Shown here: piece by piece, positions 26,229 through 36,051 of the stretch
Position numbering within the stretch: the first letter of the stretch is position 1
Layout: the number at the start of each line of letters is the position of its first letter
DNA from: Clostridiales bacterium
GTDB taxonomy: Bacteria; Bacillota; Clostridia; Christensenellales; Pumilibacteraceae
DNA: 41,857 nucleotides
NCBI GenBank assembly: GCA_031286385.1
Contig: JAITUJ010000093.1
Span: forward strand, 1-41,857
Direction of reading: 5' to 3'
Position numbers and translations under genes: made by a program
Notes under the pieces: generated by a model
The model's input: the letters and a program-made list of their open reading frames with translations, nothing else
The model's database searches: none
What the model was told of the DNA's origin: nothing

Positions 26229-26948
26229 TCAACTTTCCATTATATCCATGAACAACTGTTCTAGATTTCTATCTTGTGATTTAATATCTTTTTCAATGTC
26301 ATAAATGCCCTTTAACTCACCTGATTTCAAAATGCCCACTCTGTCACAGAGATTTTCTACTACATCTAAAACATGGCTACTAAAAAAGACTGTATTCCCT
26401 AACTTTGCATGTGTTTTCATGCACTCTTTTAGCTCATAGCAAGACTGAGGATCAAGTCCGGTCATGGGCTCATCAAGTATCCACAACTTTGGACGATGCA
26501 AAAGAGTGGCTATTACACAAATTTTTTGTTTCATACCGTGTGAATAACTTTTAATCTGGCGGTCATACGCATATTCTAGCTTAAATAATTCCAGAAATTT
26601 TTTAGCTCGCTGTTCTCTATCTTGCATAGATACGCCGTATATGTTGGCAATGTGATTGACATACTCTCGCCCTGTCAACCTTTCAAACACCGCATGGTTG
26701 TCCGGGACATATCCCATTTCTTGTTTTGCTGACATAGCATTTTTTTTGATGTCTTGTCCATTCACTTGGATTGTACCTTTTTGAAAGGGCAAAATACCTA
26801 CCACACTTTTAATCGTGGTAGATTTACCTGCTCCGTTGTTACCCAAGAATCCAAAAATTTCTCCCGGACGCAACTCAAAACTGACATCTTTTACGACATA
26901 ACTTTTTGTATTGCCATAAGATTTTGATAAGTTTGTAATTTTTAACAT
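26229..26948 (-). CDS. ABC transporter ATP-binding protein
   Basis: A single ATPase domain of 239 residues with Walker A GNNGAGKST, signature YSHGMKQK, Walker B LWILDEP and the D-loop GLDP. The subfamily resembles ABC-2 exporter ATPases (DRA/CcmA-like). It is the last gene of the operon that starts with the 545-residue permease; two anchored surface proteins are encoded between them. AGGG lies 8 bases before the ATG, a weak ribosome binding site. Confidence 0.9.
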   Translation of the reverse strand: MLKITNLSKSYGNTKSYVVKDVSFELRPGEIFGFLGNNGAGKSTTIKSVVGILPFQKGTIQVNGQDIKKNAMSAKQEMGYVPDNHAVFERLTGREYVNHIANIYGVSMQDREQRAKKFLELFKLEYAYDRQIKSYSHGMKQKICVIATLLHRPKLWILDEPMTGLDPQSCYELKECMKTHAKLGNTVFFSSHVLDVVENLCDRVGILKSGELKGIYDIEKDIKSQDRNLEQLFMDIMES

Positions 26949-26989
26949 AACTTTAACCCTAATTGATTCGTTTATATAATATTTTTAAT

Positions 26990-29686
26990 CTACGCAACAA
27001 ATTTTGAATTGATTAAATACCCTTCCACTCCACTGTATAAAGCAATTAAATCCATAACCCTAGAATAAAACAAATACTTGTCTTTTATATTTGTACCCGT
27101 CACCAGTGAGTTTAATGTATTGCTAGGCAAATCAAAATTAAAAGTAGTAAATGCAAGGTGAGGCTTTTCATCAAATGTTGAGAAAAAAACTAAATTGAAC
27201 TCATTTAATTTGTTACTGTTGTCATTGTATGAAATATTTTCCATCACTTGTTCTCTGACTTGCAGGTAATTTTCCACAGTGTTGGGTACTGCTACTTCCA
27301 CTAACTTTGGCATCATCGTATTGATTGGATTTCCAGAAGCCAATCTGCTTGTGTGCCAAGTTTCTGCATGAATATTGGCAAACATATTGCCTCCTAACAG
27401 TGTTATTGTCTGTATATTTGGTTCACTTCCATCAAAGCTAGTGCCTGGTGACCACCACTTGCTACCTCCTCTCTCAAAGTATACACTGTGTCCTCCTGAC
27501 ACGCCAAAATAATTGTCTTTGAGATTGAATATAGTACCCTTTATTCTAAAATCACTGGCAAAATTGTCCTCAAACCAACTGTTATCAATGGTAGCATCAT
27601 TGATAAATCTCAATACAGCGGCATGACCAGAATTGGTTATCTTTACATTGTTCATTGCAAAGGATGATAGAAAATTGGCAACAATAGAGGAGATATAGGT
27701 CCCATTAAACACACCCTCATTTTGAGAACCAGACACTTCAATCAAACCACCATCTTCTGCTTTATCTGTTGGTTGATGAGGTAAGTTTGTAGTTTTGTTG
27801 ATGTACCCCACATTACCATAGATTTCAAAGTCATTGATCACTACATCCCCAATAAATGGACCTTGATAGGTATTCCCATTACCCGTGCCATCCAAAGACA
27901 ATTGAGTTACCTCTTTACCTCCATCAAACACAATGAGTGCAGAGTACCAAAAAGTATTGTTGTCCGCATCATTTATGAGTCCGTATCCTGATGACTTTGG
28001 AGTCATATAGGACATTTTACTAAAATCAAGTTTATAGCCATTGCCATTTATGATTTTGCTTTGGTTGCGCACAAAAATGCGGTTTTCCAAATACTGTTTC
28101 AACATGGTCTGGTCATCACTTTTTGCAATGCTCAATTCTAGATTACTCAACAAGTTGACGGTATCTATTGTTTCATCTTCCAAAGCTGATTTAAAGTTTT
28201 GGTAATCATAAACATTGTTTCCTAAATTCAAGTCCAACTCAAATTTAGCCGTCGCTTCCAATACGCTTCCTGTATTGGAAGAAACATTGATAATAGTACG
28301 ACCTTTTGCATTTTTATCAAAGATAATTTTTTTGTTGCTTGCATCATATTCTCCAACTTGACTTTGACCATTTTCCACTGTGACTGCAAAATCCAAATGC
28401 GGTCTCGTTCCTGGTATATTTACAAAACTGAAATCAAAAGGCAAGTCAAAATCATGTCCCCAACCAAACTGTGTCTTTGCTTTTTGTTGCCAAGACTGCA
28501 ACTGCGATGATAAAACTATGCTTTGAGGAGGAACAAGTACATGCACATCTACTTGCGTTACAAATGTGGCGTAAGCTATTCTGACTTTTGCAAGTCCATG
28601 ACCCAATGGAATAAAATTGCCTGCACTGTCCAAAAGTAAATTCTCTTGCCCCTCAACTATGGTCACCGAAATATCTGATTTTGGAACATAGTAACCATCA
28701 CCGTCTAATAGCATCACCCCCAAGTCTTTGCGTTGAGGGTCATTAATATCCAAAGTGTCCGTCTGCAAAGAAAAATAGTACTGCATATCTTTTACCACAG
28801 TCAGTTTAAGTGTCCTGTAAGCGTTGTCACCTTTTGTAGCGTAAACTTCAAATTGATCCCCAATTTTTGCACCTTTGTCAATGATAAGGATATCACCTAC
28901 AAACTTTGCATTTTGATAGTTTTTGACAAAAAATTCAGCATCAGACAAAATAGTATTTGCCAATTTAGCAGACAGCTTGACTTGTTCCCCAGGCAACACT
29001 TGCGTCCTATCATATGGAAGAGAAACAGTGATGTCATTGATAACTGCAAATTCTATTAAGTTGCTTTCGATTTGTCCATTTATGACAGCTTTGACCTTGA
29101 ATGTTTGGTTTATTGCACTTTCTTTAAACGCAATGACAAAATCACTGACACGAACAACAAACTGTTCTCCTTGCAAAAATTGTAGCTCAACTGATGAAAC
29201 ACTTGCATCAATTGGGTCGAGCTGCAAGTCAAAAGTGACATTTGTGCCAAAATCCACTTCAAAATCACCGTTGTATTGTTTGATTTCAGGAGCGGATAAT
29301 TTTACTGATTGTAAAGGAATGCCCACTATTGTTATCAATTTTTGTTGATACTGATAGTTTGAAAGCGTTGCAAAGACACTCAATTGTTCACCTACAATGG
29401 CATCTGCATTTACAGTCAGCAAACCTGTATCTTGGTCAATCGTTGCATTTTTTGTATCAGACAAGTAAAACTGTGCATTGGTGGCTGGGACATCATTGAT
29501 GATAGCATTAAACTGCAATTGTCTGTTTGGCATGACAGTGTCCACAAAATCTGTTGCGTACACTTTTACTATATTTTCTTGACTTTGCTTTTTGTTTCCC
29601 AAAATCAAAGCAATAGGCAACACACTCAATGCAAATAGTATTGCAACGGTAAACCCAATACTTTTTATGATGTTTTTTTCATTCAT
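26990..29686 (-). CDS. membrane-anchored Ig-like and beta-helix surface protein, 898 aa
   Basis: Not a known named protein. One N-terminal helix (about residues 9-30) anchors it. Several Ig-like beta domains follow (about 35-500), with Big_2-like phrases such as NATIDQDTGLLTVNA and GEQVKLSAKL. From about residue 505 the pattern IINGNGYKLDFS, then repeated short strands (MNNVKITNSGHAAVLRF, ATIDNSWFEDNFAS, IFNLKDNYFGV) fits a right-handed parallel beta-helix, as in pectate-lyase-like proteins. No lipobox or sortase motif is seen. A GAGGTGAGG tract precedes the ATG. Its place inside an ABC exporter operon suggests it works with the exporter at the cell surface. Confidence 0.75.
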   Translation of the reverse strand: MNEKNIIKSIGFTVAILFALSVLPIALILGNKKQSQENIVKVYATDFVDTVMPNRQLQFNAIINDVPATNAQFYLSDTKNATIDQDTGLLTVNADAIVGEQLSVFATLSNYQYQQKLITIVGIPLQSVKLSAPEIKQYNGDFEVDFGTNVTFDLQLDPIDASVSSVELQFLQGEQFVVRVSDFVIAFKESAINQTFKVKAVINGQIESNLIEFAVINDITVSLPYDRTQVLPGEQVKLSAKLANTILSDAEFFVKNYQNAKFVGDILIIDKGAKIGDQFEVYATKGDNAYRTLKLTVVKDMQYYFSLQTDTLDINDPQRKDLGVMLLDGDGYYVPKSDISVTIVEGQENLLLDSAGNFIPLGHGLAKVRIAYATFVTQVDVHVLVPPQSIVLSSQLQSWQQKAKTQFGWGHDFDLPFDFSFVNIPGTRPHLDFAVTVENGQSQVGEYDASNKKIIFDKNAKGRTIINVSSNTGSVLEATAKFELDLNLGNNVYDYQNFKSALEDETIDTVNLLSNLELSIAKSDDQTMLKQYLENRIFVRNQSKIINGNGYKLDFSKMSYMTPKSSGYGLINDADNNTFWYSALIVFDGGKEVTQLSLDGTGNGNTYQGPFIGDVVINDFEIYGNVGYINKTTNLPHQPTDKAEDGGLIEVSGSQNEGVFNGTYISSIVANFLSSFAMNNVKITNSGHAAVLRFINDATIDNSWFEDNFASDFRIKGTIFNLKDNYFGVSGGHSVYFERGGSKWWSPGTSFDGSEPNIQTITLLGGNMFANIHAETWHTSRLASGNPINTMMPKLVEVAVPNTVENYLQVREQVMENISYNDNSNKLNEFNLVFFSTFDEKPHLAFTTFNFDLPSNTLNSLVTGTNIKDKYLFYSRVMDLIALYSGVEGYLINSKFVA

Positions 29687-29710
29687 TTAACTTTACCTCA
29701 CCTCAAATTT

Positions 29711-30616
29711 TTATACTCTTCTCATTACATTTAAATACAATAAATAAAGATTGTCGTCGCTACCCAAATACTCCGCCTTTAACTCCACAACTTGCATAGT
29801 GAGGGCTATGGTCAAAATATTACTCTCTATACTTGCAGGACCAGAAATAATTGTGAACTTAACTTCTTGGTTAGAGTTTTGTATGGATGCGTCAATTTCC
29901 GTTTTCAACTCAAACTTTTCAGTGTCAATCATTAAAACATCGGCTTGTACATCAAAACCCCAATTGATAGGATTGTGTAAAACCTCCACATGTATGGTGG
30001 TAAATACATCGTAATTTATCGTTGACCTAATGACAATTTGCACTACACCTTGTTTTTTTGCTATGATGCGATTGTATTGCATGTCTGCTATGGATTTGTC
30101 ACTTGACTCATATTGAATCCCCACTTGAACAGTATTGAGAGGCAAAAATGTAGGGGTTTTTATATCAAATTGATTGCCTGTTTTAAGCACAATATTTTTA
30201 TCAGACTCATCAACTAAAATTTCTCTTACCGGACCTCTATTGTCAATGGCTACATTTACACTGGCTGACTTTTTACCATCCATTGTGGAAACTACAATTT
30301 TTGACATACCAGAAAGTGATTTTGCCCATACAATTCCATCTCTGTCCACGGAAACATCTTCACTGCTAGAACTAAATTGTAACTCTCTATTGCTTGCATT
30401 GGCTGGCAAGACTTTAACAGAAAGTTGCATTGACTGATTCGTTTCTAAATTAAATGTAAACCCAGTCACATTGATTTCATTCCCATTAAAATCTACAAAC
30501 ACAACTCTCTCTACTGGTATATCCATTGTCTTTAAAAAGACTTGCCCAATGACACCAATCAACACGACCAAAAAAAACGGCATGGCTATCAAAACTACTG
30601 TAACAAATTTTTTCAA
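29711..30616 (-). CDS. membrane-anchored Ig-like protein, 301 aa
   Basis: Function unknown. An N-terminal helix (about residues 4-29) precedes two or three beta-rich Ig-like repeats. The phrases LQFSSSSEDVSVDRDGIVWAKSLSGMSKIVVST and YESSDKSIADMQYNRIIAKKQGVVQIVI are typical of bacterial Big_2 domains. The start is a TTG at 30616 with GGAGGT five bases before it. That Shine-Dalgarno lies in the last codons of the permease gene, so translation is coupled. It resembles the N-terminal half of the 898-residue protein encoded next, and the two may have arisen by duplication. Confidence 0.7.
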   Translation of the reverse strand: MKKFVTVVLIAMPFFLVVLIGVIGQVFLKTMDIPVERVVFVDFNGNEINVTGFTFNLETNQSMQLSVKVLPANASNRELQFSSSSEDVSVDRDGIVWAKSLSGMSKIVVSTMDGKKSASVNVAIDNRGPVREILVDESDKNIVLKTGNQFDIKTPTFLPLNTVQVGIQYESSDKSIADMQYNRIIAKKQGVVQIVIRSTINYDVFTTIHVEVLHNPINWGFDVQADVLMIDTEKFELKTEIDASIQNSNQEVKFTIISGPASIESNILTIALTMQVVELKAEYLGSDDNLYLLYLNVMRRV

Positions 30617-30617
30617 A

Positions 30618-32255
30618 CTACACCTCCAATTTTTCTATTCTCTTGATAGAATTTACAAGCCAAATGATAGACAAAGCACAGTAGACAATCACAATAGACC
30701 AAACAACTATCCAAGCAACACTTATGTTTTGTTTGTTTGCAAAAATCATATAAACAACTCCCAAAGCAATGCTTAAAGCAAAACCACACGCGATTGCAAT
30801 GCCCGTATTTTTACTCAATCTGTTCAACTCATTGCTGTCAACCCAAACTAAACTAGGCTTGTTTAAATCAAGACCAATATTAAAACAACAGTTCCCCACT
30901 GCAAATAAGAACATTATAATGCCAATTATCACAAATTCCAAAACATATTGGCTGTGTGATACAATGCAAGCGACAGTCGTAACCATCACTGCAATAAATA
31001 CTAAGGACAAGTTGAAACAAAGCTTGGATAGTATGGTAGTACTATATTGAACAGGCAAAGTTTTCATGCAATAAAAATTGCACCCTTCCAAACTGATGGT
31101 GTTTGCCGCATAGATATTGGACAGAGAGATGAATATGCACCCGCTCAACAAAAGACCACCCGGTATCATATTGGTACCAATTGCGTTGACCGTCATTGAA
31201 TACATCATTTGGGAAAACAAAACCACAAAAAAAGGCATCAAAAGAATAAATAAAAAATACGACAGTATGTTGTTTGAATTTCTAAAATTAGTCTTGTATT
31301 CTTTTATAACTAGGCTTGTAAACTGCGAATTTTTACTATACTTACCCCTACTATATTTTATGCTATTTTCCGTGCTCATGTTGATGGCCAACTTAAAGTA
31401 GTATGGTTTGACAATCGCGACCAAAATACTACACATTAAAAAAATGCTCAGTACAATAAAAGGCAGACCTTGATAAAAAAACTTCCAGCTATTTAGCTGA
31501 ATGATGATACTTTTAAAACCATGTAAAGAGTTTGCAGCCCTGTTTATTTTATTGTTTACATTGAACATTACAACACCGATATTGTTGCTAAAATCAAAAG
31601 TGTCCGACAAGCTGTTTACTAAAATAAAGTACATAAAGCAAACTGTGCACAACAACAAAAGCACTATTATGGTCTTTGCTACAATTTTGTCCTTAAACAA
31701 ATTATATAAGGCAATAATAGGCAAACTGACAATTCCGCTCAACAGAACAGTCAAAATTGGCATTAAAACCAAAAATACGATACAAGAAATAAAATAAACC
31801 CAAGATATAGAATCTGTCAAAATAGAACTGTCACCCAAAAAATTTGCAACGCCAAACCATACAAATATTGGAAAAGTCAATATAAAGTTTATCAAAAATT
31901 CTTTAACAAAAAAAGTAATTATTCTGGACAAAAAAATATCATTTTGACTAGCTGGCAACGACATGTACAGTTCGTTTTCTTTTGAAAAATAAAAACCCGT
32001 AATGATTGCACTCAGGCTATGAAAAAACAGAATGACAAAAAACATACTCATAACGACGGTTAAGAGTGAAAATGACACTTCCAATAATGGAATTTTGTTG
32101 ACAAGGTATACCAATAAAATTCCCATAGTGGATAAAAAAACGAACAACGCTAGCATCTTTACAGTAAAAATTATTTTATTTGTACTTTTAAACAGACGAA
32201 TTCTGTCATTCAACTGTAAAGCTACTAGACCACTTATTTTGCTAAAATAGGACAT
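30618..32255 (-). CDS. ABC-2-like exporter permease, 545 aa
   Basis: A large membrane protein with about twelve helices in two halves. A cytoplasmic stretch (YYFKLAINMSTENSIKYSRGKYSKNSQFTSLVIKEYKTNFRN) lies between them, and SKENELYMSLPASQNDIFLSRI near the first half resembles the coupling region of ABC-2 permeases. The substrate is unknown. It is the first gene of a four-gene operon with two Ig-like surface proteins and an ATPase. The start is the ATG at 32255. A longer reading from TTG at 32294 would use the promoter -35 box as its start codon and is rejected. Confidence 0.75.
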   Translation of the reverse strand: MSYFSKISGLVALQLNDRIRLFKSTNKIIFTVKMLALFVFLSTMGILLVYLVNKIPLLEVSFSLLTVVMSMFFVILFFHSLSAIITGFYFSKENELYMSLPASQNDIFLSRIITFFVKEFLINFILTFPIFVWFGVANFLGDSSILTDSISWVYFISCIVFLVLMPILTVLLSGIVSLPIIALYNLFKDKIVAKTIIVLLLLCTVCFMYFILVNSLSDTFDFSNNIGVVMFNVNNKINRAANSLHGFKSIIIQLNSWKFFYQGLPFIVLSIFLMCSILVAIVKPYYFKLAINMSTENSIKYSRGKYSKNSQFTSLVIKEYKTNFRNSNNILSYFLFILLMPFFVVLFSQMMYSMTVNAIGTNMIPGGLLLSGCIFISLSNIYAANTISLEGCNFYCMKTLPVQYSTTILSKLCFNLSLVFIAVMVTTVACIVSHSQYVLEFVIIGIIMFLFAVGNCCFNIGLDLNKPSLVWVDSNELNRLSKNTGIAIACGFALSIALGVVYMIFANKQNISVAWIVVWSIVIVYCALSIIWLVNSIKRIEKLEV

Positions 32256-32265
32256 CTTAATTGTC

Positions 32266-32294
32266 ATTATATAGTTTATTTTTCTCAATGTCAA
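32266..32294 (-). promoter_or_regulatory. consensus promoter of the ABC/Ig operon
   Basis: TTGACA (32294-32289), a 17-bp spacer and TATAAT (32271-32266), perfect in both boxes, with 10 bases to the ATG. The region up to 32440 is shared with the divergent M23 peptidase gene. Confidence 0.75.
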
Positions 32295-34524: not shown

Positions 34525-35097
34525 TTATTTATTTTCACCATTCCACCTGTACGCACAGTCAAACAGCATACACTTAGAACACTGATTATCGCAGTCAATA
34601 CCTGGCCTAAATTCACTTTTTGCGTTTTGTTTCTCTCTATGCACGGTTTCTGGTGGCAAACTAGCTGTTTTGACATTGTCGCGTTTTTGTGATTTTATCT
34701 GTTGAGGTTTTTCTTTATAAAAATCATACTCGTCATCTTGCTCAAAGTCTGTAAAATTATCACTTGGCTGATTAAGTTGTGTTATGGATACTTGCCCATG
34801 ACTGTGATGCCCTCTATTGTGATGGAAGTTATTTAAAAGCGGGGACAATCTCACCAGTATAATGTCCTCACCTATTCTTTCCACTAAATCCCAGGGGATA
34901 AAAATAGGTTCACTATTTCTAAAAATAATATTTTTGCGAGCATGTGGCACTACGATTCCTCGTATCCTACCATCTCTCAATCCAAATACAATATCAATGA
35001 TTCTGCCCAAGCGCTTACCATCAATACTGTTTACCACTTCTTTGCATCTAAGTTCAGCAAAAGACAAGGCATTGTGATGTCGTGATTTCTTTGACAT
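34525..35097 (-). CDS. YlmC/YmxH-family PRC-barrel sporulation protein with long metal-binding-like tail
   Basis: The first 80 or so residues are a YlmC/YmxH PRC-barrel domain (FAELRCKEVVNSIDGKRLGRIIDIVFG...GRIRGIVVP, IPWDLVERIGEDIILV). Known homologues are about 80-90 residues, whereas this protein has 190. The extension starts with a His-rich stretch (FHHNRGHHSHGQ), continues with charged linker sequence and ends with four cysteines (CDNQCSKCMLFDC). That pattern could bind zinc or iron-sulfur. It is divergent from sigG; ylmC/ymxH genes also lie near sigG in Bacillus. The ATG at 35097 lacks a clear ribosome binding site. Confidence 0.8.
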   Translation of the reverse strand: MSKKSRHHNALSFAELRCKEVVNSIDGKRLGRIIDIVFGLRDGRIRGIVVPHARKNIIFRNSEPIFIPWDLVERIGEDIILVRLSPLLNNFHHNRGHHSHGQVSITQLNQPSDNFTDFEQDDEYDFYKEKPQQIKSQKRDNVKTASLPPETVHREKQNAKSEFRPGIDCDNQCSKCMLFDCAYRWNGENK

Positions 35098-35233
35098 AGT
35101 TTTATGAATGCATAATTTTATATTCGGCTACTACAATTTAAGTTACTGTTATGCACTGTTCTATACTATTCACCCAACTCACAAATTATTACAAAACTTG
35201 CCAAAATAAAATAAATTTTGGTATATTTTTGTA

Positions 35234-35262
35234 TTGAAAAGAAAAAACTACTTTGATAAAAT
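35234..35262 (+). promoter_or_regulatory. promoter of sigG
   Basis: TTGAAA (35234-35239), a 17-bp spacer and TAAAAT (35257-35262), a sigma-A-like arrangement, with 18 bases to the ATG and AGGAAGG as ribosome binding site. A sigma-F or sigma-G promoter would be expected for this gene. No good match to either was found, but they could overlap this sequence. Confidence 0.5.
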
Positions 35263-35280
35263 ATATGCAAGGAAGGTATT

Positions 35281-36051
35281 ATGAGCAGCAGAGTTGTAAT
35301 ATGTGGTATCAACACCGCAAATTTACCAAAGATAAGTCACAAAGAAACCATTGCACTTATAAAACAAATTAGAGAGGGAGATGACCAAGCGAGAGAACAT
35401 TTTTTGATGGCAAACATGAGATTGGTACTATCCATAGTACAAAGGTTTAATCACAAAAAAGAATGTGTTGATGACATATTTCAAGTAGGTTGTATAGGAC
35501 TCATAAAAGCAATGCAAAACTTCAATACAGACTACAACTTGCGTTTTAGCACTTATGCAGTGCCTATGATAATTGGCGAGATTAGAAGATTTTTACGCGA
35601 TAACAGTGCTGTCAGAATTAGCAGAAGCATTCGAGACAATGCATACAAGGTGCTTCAAGCAAGACAAAGTATTGAAGCAGGATTGGATAGAGAGGCGTCA
35701 CTAGACGAAATTGCAGCGGCTATTGATTTAAGTGTAAACGAAGTCGTTTACTGCCTTGATGCTATCAGTGACCCAGTATCACTGTTTGACCCTGTGTACC
35801 ATGACGATGGCGATACAGTTATGGTCATGGACCAGTTAAAAGATAACAAAAATATAGACGAAAATTGGTTAAACAGCGTCAATTTAAATGAAGCCATAAA
35901 TAAGTTGAGTTCTAGGGAAAAAGAAATTTTGATGCTTCGCTTTTATGAAGGCAAAACGCAAATAGAAGTGAGCAAAGAAGTGGGCATAAGTCAAGCACAA
36001 GTATCAAGACTAGAAAAAAACGCAATAGCTGGACTGCAAAAAAGCATATAA
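35281..36051 (+). CDS. sigG: sporulation sigma factor G
   Basis: The late forespore sigma factor, 256 residues. The N-terminal VVICGINTANLPKIS is the region that distinguishes sigma-G from sigma-F. Region 2 follows (MRLVLSIVQRFNHKKECVDDIFQVGCIGLIKAMQNF, RFSTYAVPMIIGEIRRFLRDNS), then regions 3 and 4 with SREKEILMLRFYEGKTQIEVSKEVGISQAQVSRLEKNA. The usual spoIIGA-sigE genes do not precede it; instead the YlmC/YmxH gene is divergent. Strong evidence that the organism, or its recent ancestor, forms endospores. Confidence 0.95.
   Translation: MSSRVVICGINTANLPKISHKETIALIKQIREGDDQAREHFLMANMRLVLSIVQRFNHKKECVDDIFQVGCIGLIKAMQNFNTDYNLRFSTYAVPMIIGEIRRFLRDNSAVRISRSIRDNAYKVLQARQSIEAGLDREASLDEIAAAIDLSVNEVVYCLDAISDPVSLFDPVYHDDGDTVMVMDQLKDNKNIDENWLNSVNLNEAINKLSSREKEILMLRFYEGKTQIEVSKEVGISQAQVSRLEKNAIAGLQKSI

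Follow-up and report, generated by a model that had tools for sequence, protein, structure and literature searches.

A Clostridial ABC transporter subfamily linked to anchored Ig-like and beta-helix-type surface proteins that may serve as its extracellular arm

We describe an ABC transporter operon of uncultured Clostridia in which the permease gene is followed directly by a gene for a membrane-anchored Ig-like surface protein, and in which, among the permeases compared, this pairing is confined to one subfamily. The window, that is, the whole analysed stretch of 41,857 nucleotides from a Clostridiales bacterium, carries one such operon. We put at roughly 0.6 the probability that its product is a transporter of the ABC-2 fold (type V-like) equipped with an extracellular arm of its own. 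A broader proposal, to which we give slightly less than even odds, is that the operon represents a widespread, unnamed class of Bacillota ABC transporters whose obligate subunit would be a bitopic, beta-helix-tipped Ig protein, working outside a Gram-positive-type cell much as LptC or NosD does.

The operon is a head-to-tail set of four minus-strand genes (32294-26229) with intergenic gaps of 1, 24 and 41 nt. Its features are as follows:

32266-32294, minus strand: sigma-A-type promoter, TTGACA-17-TATAAT, 12/12 consensus bases (a consensus match only)
30618-32255, minus strand: ABC-2-type permease of the Ig-linked subfamily, about 545 aa from ATG 32255
29711-30616, minus strand: Ig301, a bitopic protein with an N-terminal TM anchor and two Ig-like (Big_2) domains
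26990-29686, minus strand: 898-aa surface protein with Ig-like domains and a beta-helix-type module
26229-26948, minus strand: ABC ATPase, 239 aa

The first-pass annotation had read the same gene order and a single consensus promoter from this DNA, and both readings were correct: the four genes are consecutive on the minus strand, and a perfect TTGACA-17-TATAAT stands upstream at 32294-32266. The permease ORF was called from TTG 32294; because the promoter overlaps that codon, ATG 32255 is the more likely start, with almost no leader. Ig301 begins 1 nt past the permease stop. The window genome (1.37 Mb, 87% complete) holds a single copy of the operon. The M23 peptidase and lipoprotein genes next door, which had been suggested as further parts of the system, were rejected as members, as no homologues of them occurred at E<=0.01 near 20 related operons.

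We defined the Ig-linked permease subfamily in this analysis by clade membership together with an N-anchored surface protein as the next gene, and the window permease has both. Its match to PF16949 (ABC_tran_2) is below the cut-off (17.2 bits against 25.7; E 0.0025), 27/35 permease relatives match this family at E<=0.01, and the hydropathy of the window permease points to 12-14 TM segments. When 35 permeases were placed in a tree, 18 Ig-linked sequences and L012 formed one clade with 100/100 support, and the remaining 16 fell on the sister side. L012 is the only permease of that clade lacking an Ig301-type neighbour; its next gene encodes an apparent lipoprotein at a contig edge. A PDB sequence search with the permease profile gave chance matches only, and the plasmids searched for the permease gave no match. 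Two distant Desulfobulbales permeases (63-82 bits) have no anchored partner and lie outside the family.

The main evidence for a dedicated partner comes from a next-gene test, which applied profiles of the two permease groups to all neighbourhoods, with the Ig-type threshold at >150 bits and the following gene in view. An N-terminally anchored protein came immediately after the Ig-linked permease in 54/54 cases, a set that was partly gathered through the Ig protein and is hence biased, and 53/54 of these proteins matched the anchored-Ig or beta-helix profile, whereas the gene after a sister-group permease matched these profiles in 0/45. The linkage was likewise present in all 15 of the loci gathered by the ATPase alone, which are free of the Ig-protein bias, and in 9/9 gathered by the permease, the window included. 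A median of 7 nt separates the permease gene from the anchored gene, and the two often overlap. That the genes are neighbours only, with no common function, is highly improbable in view of this linkage, the congruent permease clade and the existence of fused as well as split forms, even though the genus-mate G001, which is without the 898-aa protein, would be in its favour.

We also looked for Ig homologues occurring without the transporter. In the loci examined, contig edges apart, each anchored Ig protein lies directly downstream of an Ig-type permease. Apparent orphans in L089 and L092 were rejected on re-check, when permeases hidden by ORF picking were found. Lone beta-helix-type lipoproteins without a transporter do exist in one family (f6); these proteins of about 470-660 aa carry the same beta-helix-type module (L223:6158-7558, L224:6223-7626, L225, L226, L230 and L235) and have no Ig-type permease nearby. 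In f6, permeases of the sister type adjoin a ruvX-like gene (L240-L244).

Conservation of the operon extends far beyond one strain, to a second genus and to another family of the order. G016, from another genus of the same family, has the identical four-gene order, with a permease 40% identical and an Ig protein 27% identical to their window counterparts. Its relative of the large protein (L007:5214-11363) reaches 2049 aa, with 14 Flg_new (Listeria-Bacteroides) repeats inserted between the Ig part and the C-terminal module. The operon flanks differ between the window and G016, which has a spoIIIA cluster there, and the conservation is therefore more than shared chromosome context. In G322, from another family, the order is ATPase-permease-Ig-large protein. 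An Ig301-pair search of 396 genomes of the order gave matches in 266, of which many are Big_2 domains only and the best begin at residue 1, that is, at the TM anchor. Among 20 such neighbourhoods, most contain, in this order, an ATPase, a permease and an anchored Ig protein, and the rest end at contig edges. The beta-helix module was found in 88/248 genomes. The operon also occurs in MAGs labelled Acholeplasmataceae (L130, L134), a label that may be wrong, because sigE/sigG-like genes adjoin the operon in L130. Outside the order, the listed top matches to the anchored-Ig profile fall in internal Big_2 domains and not in anchors; the near-exception is G521, with a match from position 3 in a genome without an Ig-type permease match.

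Ig301 matches Big_2 just above the cut-off (4e-5, 23.9 bits against 22.8), with relatives reaching 1e-50; Big_2 was the only family above cut-off, and no LptC family match was found in this protein. Its N-terminus is an MKK...P13 anchor with one predicted TM helix, and K3 and P13 are kept in 27/27 and 34/34 rows of two alignments. Within the anchored proteins, conservation is highest in this TM anchor, whose identity exceeds that of the Ig domains. Permease distances correlate with those of the TM segment at r=0.87 and with those of the Ig domains at r=0.76. We take anchor conservation and co-divergence as pointing to, without proving, a position of the helix on the permease; the co-divergence signal is modest because the TM and Ig parts show a similar excess over composition in alignment A3. 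Ig301 and the 898-aa protein had been proposed to be paralogues sharing an N-terminal anchor and Ig organisation. This proposal was rejected: BLASTP between them gave E=1.0, and anchor kinds differ among relatives, the homologues of the large protein being lipoproteins and the small protein being bitopic.

The 898-aa protein comprises an N-terminal TM helix, about five Ig-like domains (40-486) and a C-terminal module with a GN motif (about 485-800). It matches Pectate_lyase_5 (PF20585) at 5e-7, above cut-off, and the module alone does so at 2e-8 (34.8 bits, cut-off 24.3). Across 23 modules, Pfam recognised Beta_helix in 5 (E<=0.1) and Pectate_lyase_5 in 3; on these matches and on homology, a beta-helix fold of the module is likely. 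In the AlphaFold model of the window protein, the residues up to 486 form the TM helix and Ig strands, and the beta-helix part has a pLDDT of about 20-50 and no fold. A fused relative, L098, was modelled with a mean pLDDT of 87 and a pTM of 0.80 as a TM helix (2-24) and Ig-type domains, followed by many short strands at 590-730. Foldseek/VIA-align matches of the models were filled by the Ig domains, with Big_2 and S-layer Ig domains in the PDB.

The putative arm is encoded in two builds. A short bitopic Ig protein (130-420 aa) is followed by a separate gene for a large surface protein, and this large protein has a lipobox in 16/17 such split systems. The sole exception is the window copy, from which the lipobox Cys is gone (LILG, vs a lipobox such as LVAC in relatives; window 29580-29610). 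Long bitopic proteins (700-3000 aa) instead end in a C-terminal module of their own, which has an invariant GN motif and looks like a beta-helix. The two builds can be matched piece by piece: the split lipoprotein of L169 is 38% identical (E=3e-92) to the C-terminus of the fused protein of L161, from 'Candidatus Faecicola pullistercoris', and the split Ig protein of L169 matches the L161 N-terminus at E=7e-16. Judged by these sequence matches, the pair is a Rosetta-stone case. The large protein of the window matches split forms well (L127, E=2e-19; L087, 4e-40). Its beta-helix module taken against fused forms alone matches weakly (E=5e-4; hhalign 2e-4, and 0.17 against A12), and its putative tie to them runs through the intermediates.

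These architectures raise the alternative that the surface proteins are self-sufficient adhesins or wall-layer proteins which the transporter serves, either by exporting a modifier or by Ecs-like clearance of peptides or lipids after secretion. Adhesins are commonly built as an Ig stalk with a beta-helix, the annotation of PF20585 is that of an adhesive domain, and Foldseek matched the fused model to S-layer proteins and to Ig/cadherin adhesion proteins. Furthermore, EcsAB/PptAB-type transporters are described as acting on peptides and secretion machinery (PMC2996298, PMC7564271). However, a clean-up pump needs no one-to-one, translationally close pairing with one anchored family across an order, conservation peaks at the TM anchor and not at the outer tip, and the permease has no match to EcsB (PF05975). 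Ig-stalk adhesins, S-layer and PF20585 proteins share with our proteins the tandem Ig domains and beta-helix-type tip of a surface protein, but here these come with strict pairing to one permease subfamily and a conserved TM anchor. We consider the adhesin explanation unlikely.

The ATPase has intact Walker A, SHGMKQ signature, Walker B and H-loop motifs and matches ABC_tran (PF00005) at 4e-32. It also resembles TIGR01188 and TIGR03740, the drug and lantibiotic-protection ATPases, with scores far below the curated cut-offs. This likeness could suggest an immunity or detoxification exporter, with the Ig/beta-helix proteins binding a toxic peptide or bacteriocin outside the cell. Yet such scores are generic, peptide or resistance genes were not recognised in the operons, and PADLOC gave no match for Ig301, the Ig/beta-helix protein or the permease and only generic P-loop matches for the ATPase, which makes this explanation improbable.

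One subtype of the system combines a large polytopic protein ending in a C-terminal ABC ATPase with a bitopic protein of 130-175 aa and a lipoprotein (L041:9942-12494, L130:6016-8190, L131, L132, L134, L135, L142, L143 and L222). In L041, the N-terminal part of the polytopic protein contains a TMEM164 (PF14808) domain, thus fused to the ATPase; the other loci of this subtype have the same size and TM pattern, and G322 has a separate TMEM164 gene upstream of the ATPase. The presence of TMEM164 may point to lipids, by association only, because its relatives are acyltransferases, among them the lipoprotein N-acetyltransferase LhaT (PMC12345273). As a sub-case compatible with the arm, the pump might extract or flip a lipid that the arm receives and on which the TMEM164-like acyltransferase domain acts. 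The lipoprotein nature of the large partner in nearly all split systems fits this possibility. On the other hand, the operons of most subtypes, the window's included, are without a TMEM164 gene, and the substrate is guessed by association, so that we regard the lipid sub-case as doubtful, if less so than the adhesin explanation. The window genome has six TMEM164-family genes elsewhere (L277-L282), which seem many for a genome of its size.

Comparison with known systems places the operon outside each of them. As in LptB2FG-LptC, an ABC transporter would here carry a small bitopic protein whose single TM helix is N-terminal and whose outer domain is all beta. LptC itself takes up substrate and regulates ATPase activity, and the likeness here is an analogy only: LptC is a beta-jellyroll, whereas the fold here is Big_2 Ig, with which the modelled relative aligns, and the permease is of PF16949 type, the hosts are Bacillota and no other Lpt parts are found here. 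NosDFY also has an extracytoplasmic beta-helix protein encoded with an ABC-2 ATPase and permease, and is said to transmit conformational change. The permease described here is about twice the length of NosY. NosD (PF05048) matched one of 23 modules weakly (0.028) and the window protein not at all, and none of the listed neighbourhoods was seen to contain nos genes. EcsAB, YthPQ, AlbCD and SkfEF are type V exporters, consisting of an ATPase and a whole membrane domain in one chain (PMC11466899). Our permease likewise appears to be an entire membrane domain in one polypeptide, but no dedicated anchored Ig/beta-helix partner is reported for EcsAB-like exporters, and no permease matched EcsB at E<=0.01. 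By family tests the system is thus neither Lpt, Nos nor Ecs, and its predicted build resembles LptC and NosD. The first-pass annotation knew of no named system with this composition, and a full-text literature search of open-licence papers found no name.

For the extracellular-arm reading, the mechanism might run as follows. A pair of ATPases probably powers one permease bearing both membrane-domain halves. The small bitopic Ig protein would dock on the permease through its single TM helix, with its Ig domains held over the permease. The large Ig/beta-helix protein, in most cases a lipoprotein, would extend the arm and display the beta-helix module outside. The transporter might then load a substrate onto the arm, in the way that LptFG supplies LptC, or move the arm, as described for NosDFY-type mechanotransmission. 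The surface proteins are unlikely to be cargo because they have their own Sec or lipoprotein signals. Linkage and co-inheritance alone do not prove contact; we infer physical contact, hand-over or movement, and an envelope-related substrate, perhaps lipid-linked or amphipathic. The genomic linkage speaks strongly for the first-pass proposal that the surface proteins and the two transporter halves form one machine, in which a scaffold or mechanotransmission role would be a more tentative element.

LptC has been described in a review as unique among ABC transporters (PMC10094684). The operon would provide a second, unrelated case of a permease subfamily seemingly bound to a bitopic all-beta partner, in an order of uncultured, mostly gut-derived Clostridia. 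With it, one could test clearly whether arms of this kind accept substrates or transmit force, and it gives a likely context to many long 'Ig-like domain' surface proteins otherwise read as adhesins. Additionally, a SigG-like gene lies near the operon in the window (34525-36051), and sporulation genes lie near it elsewhere, with spoIIIA genes in G016 (L007:14956-16474) and sigE/sigG-like genes near L130 (14947-17139).
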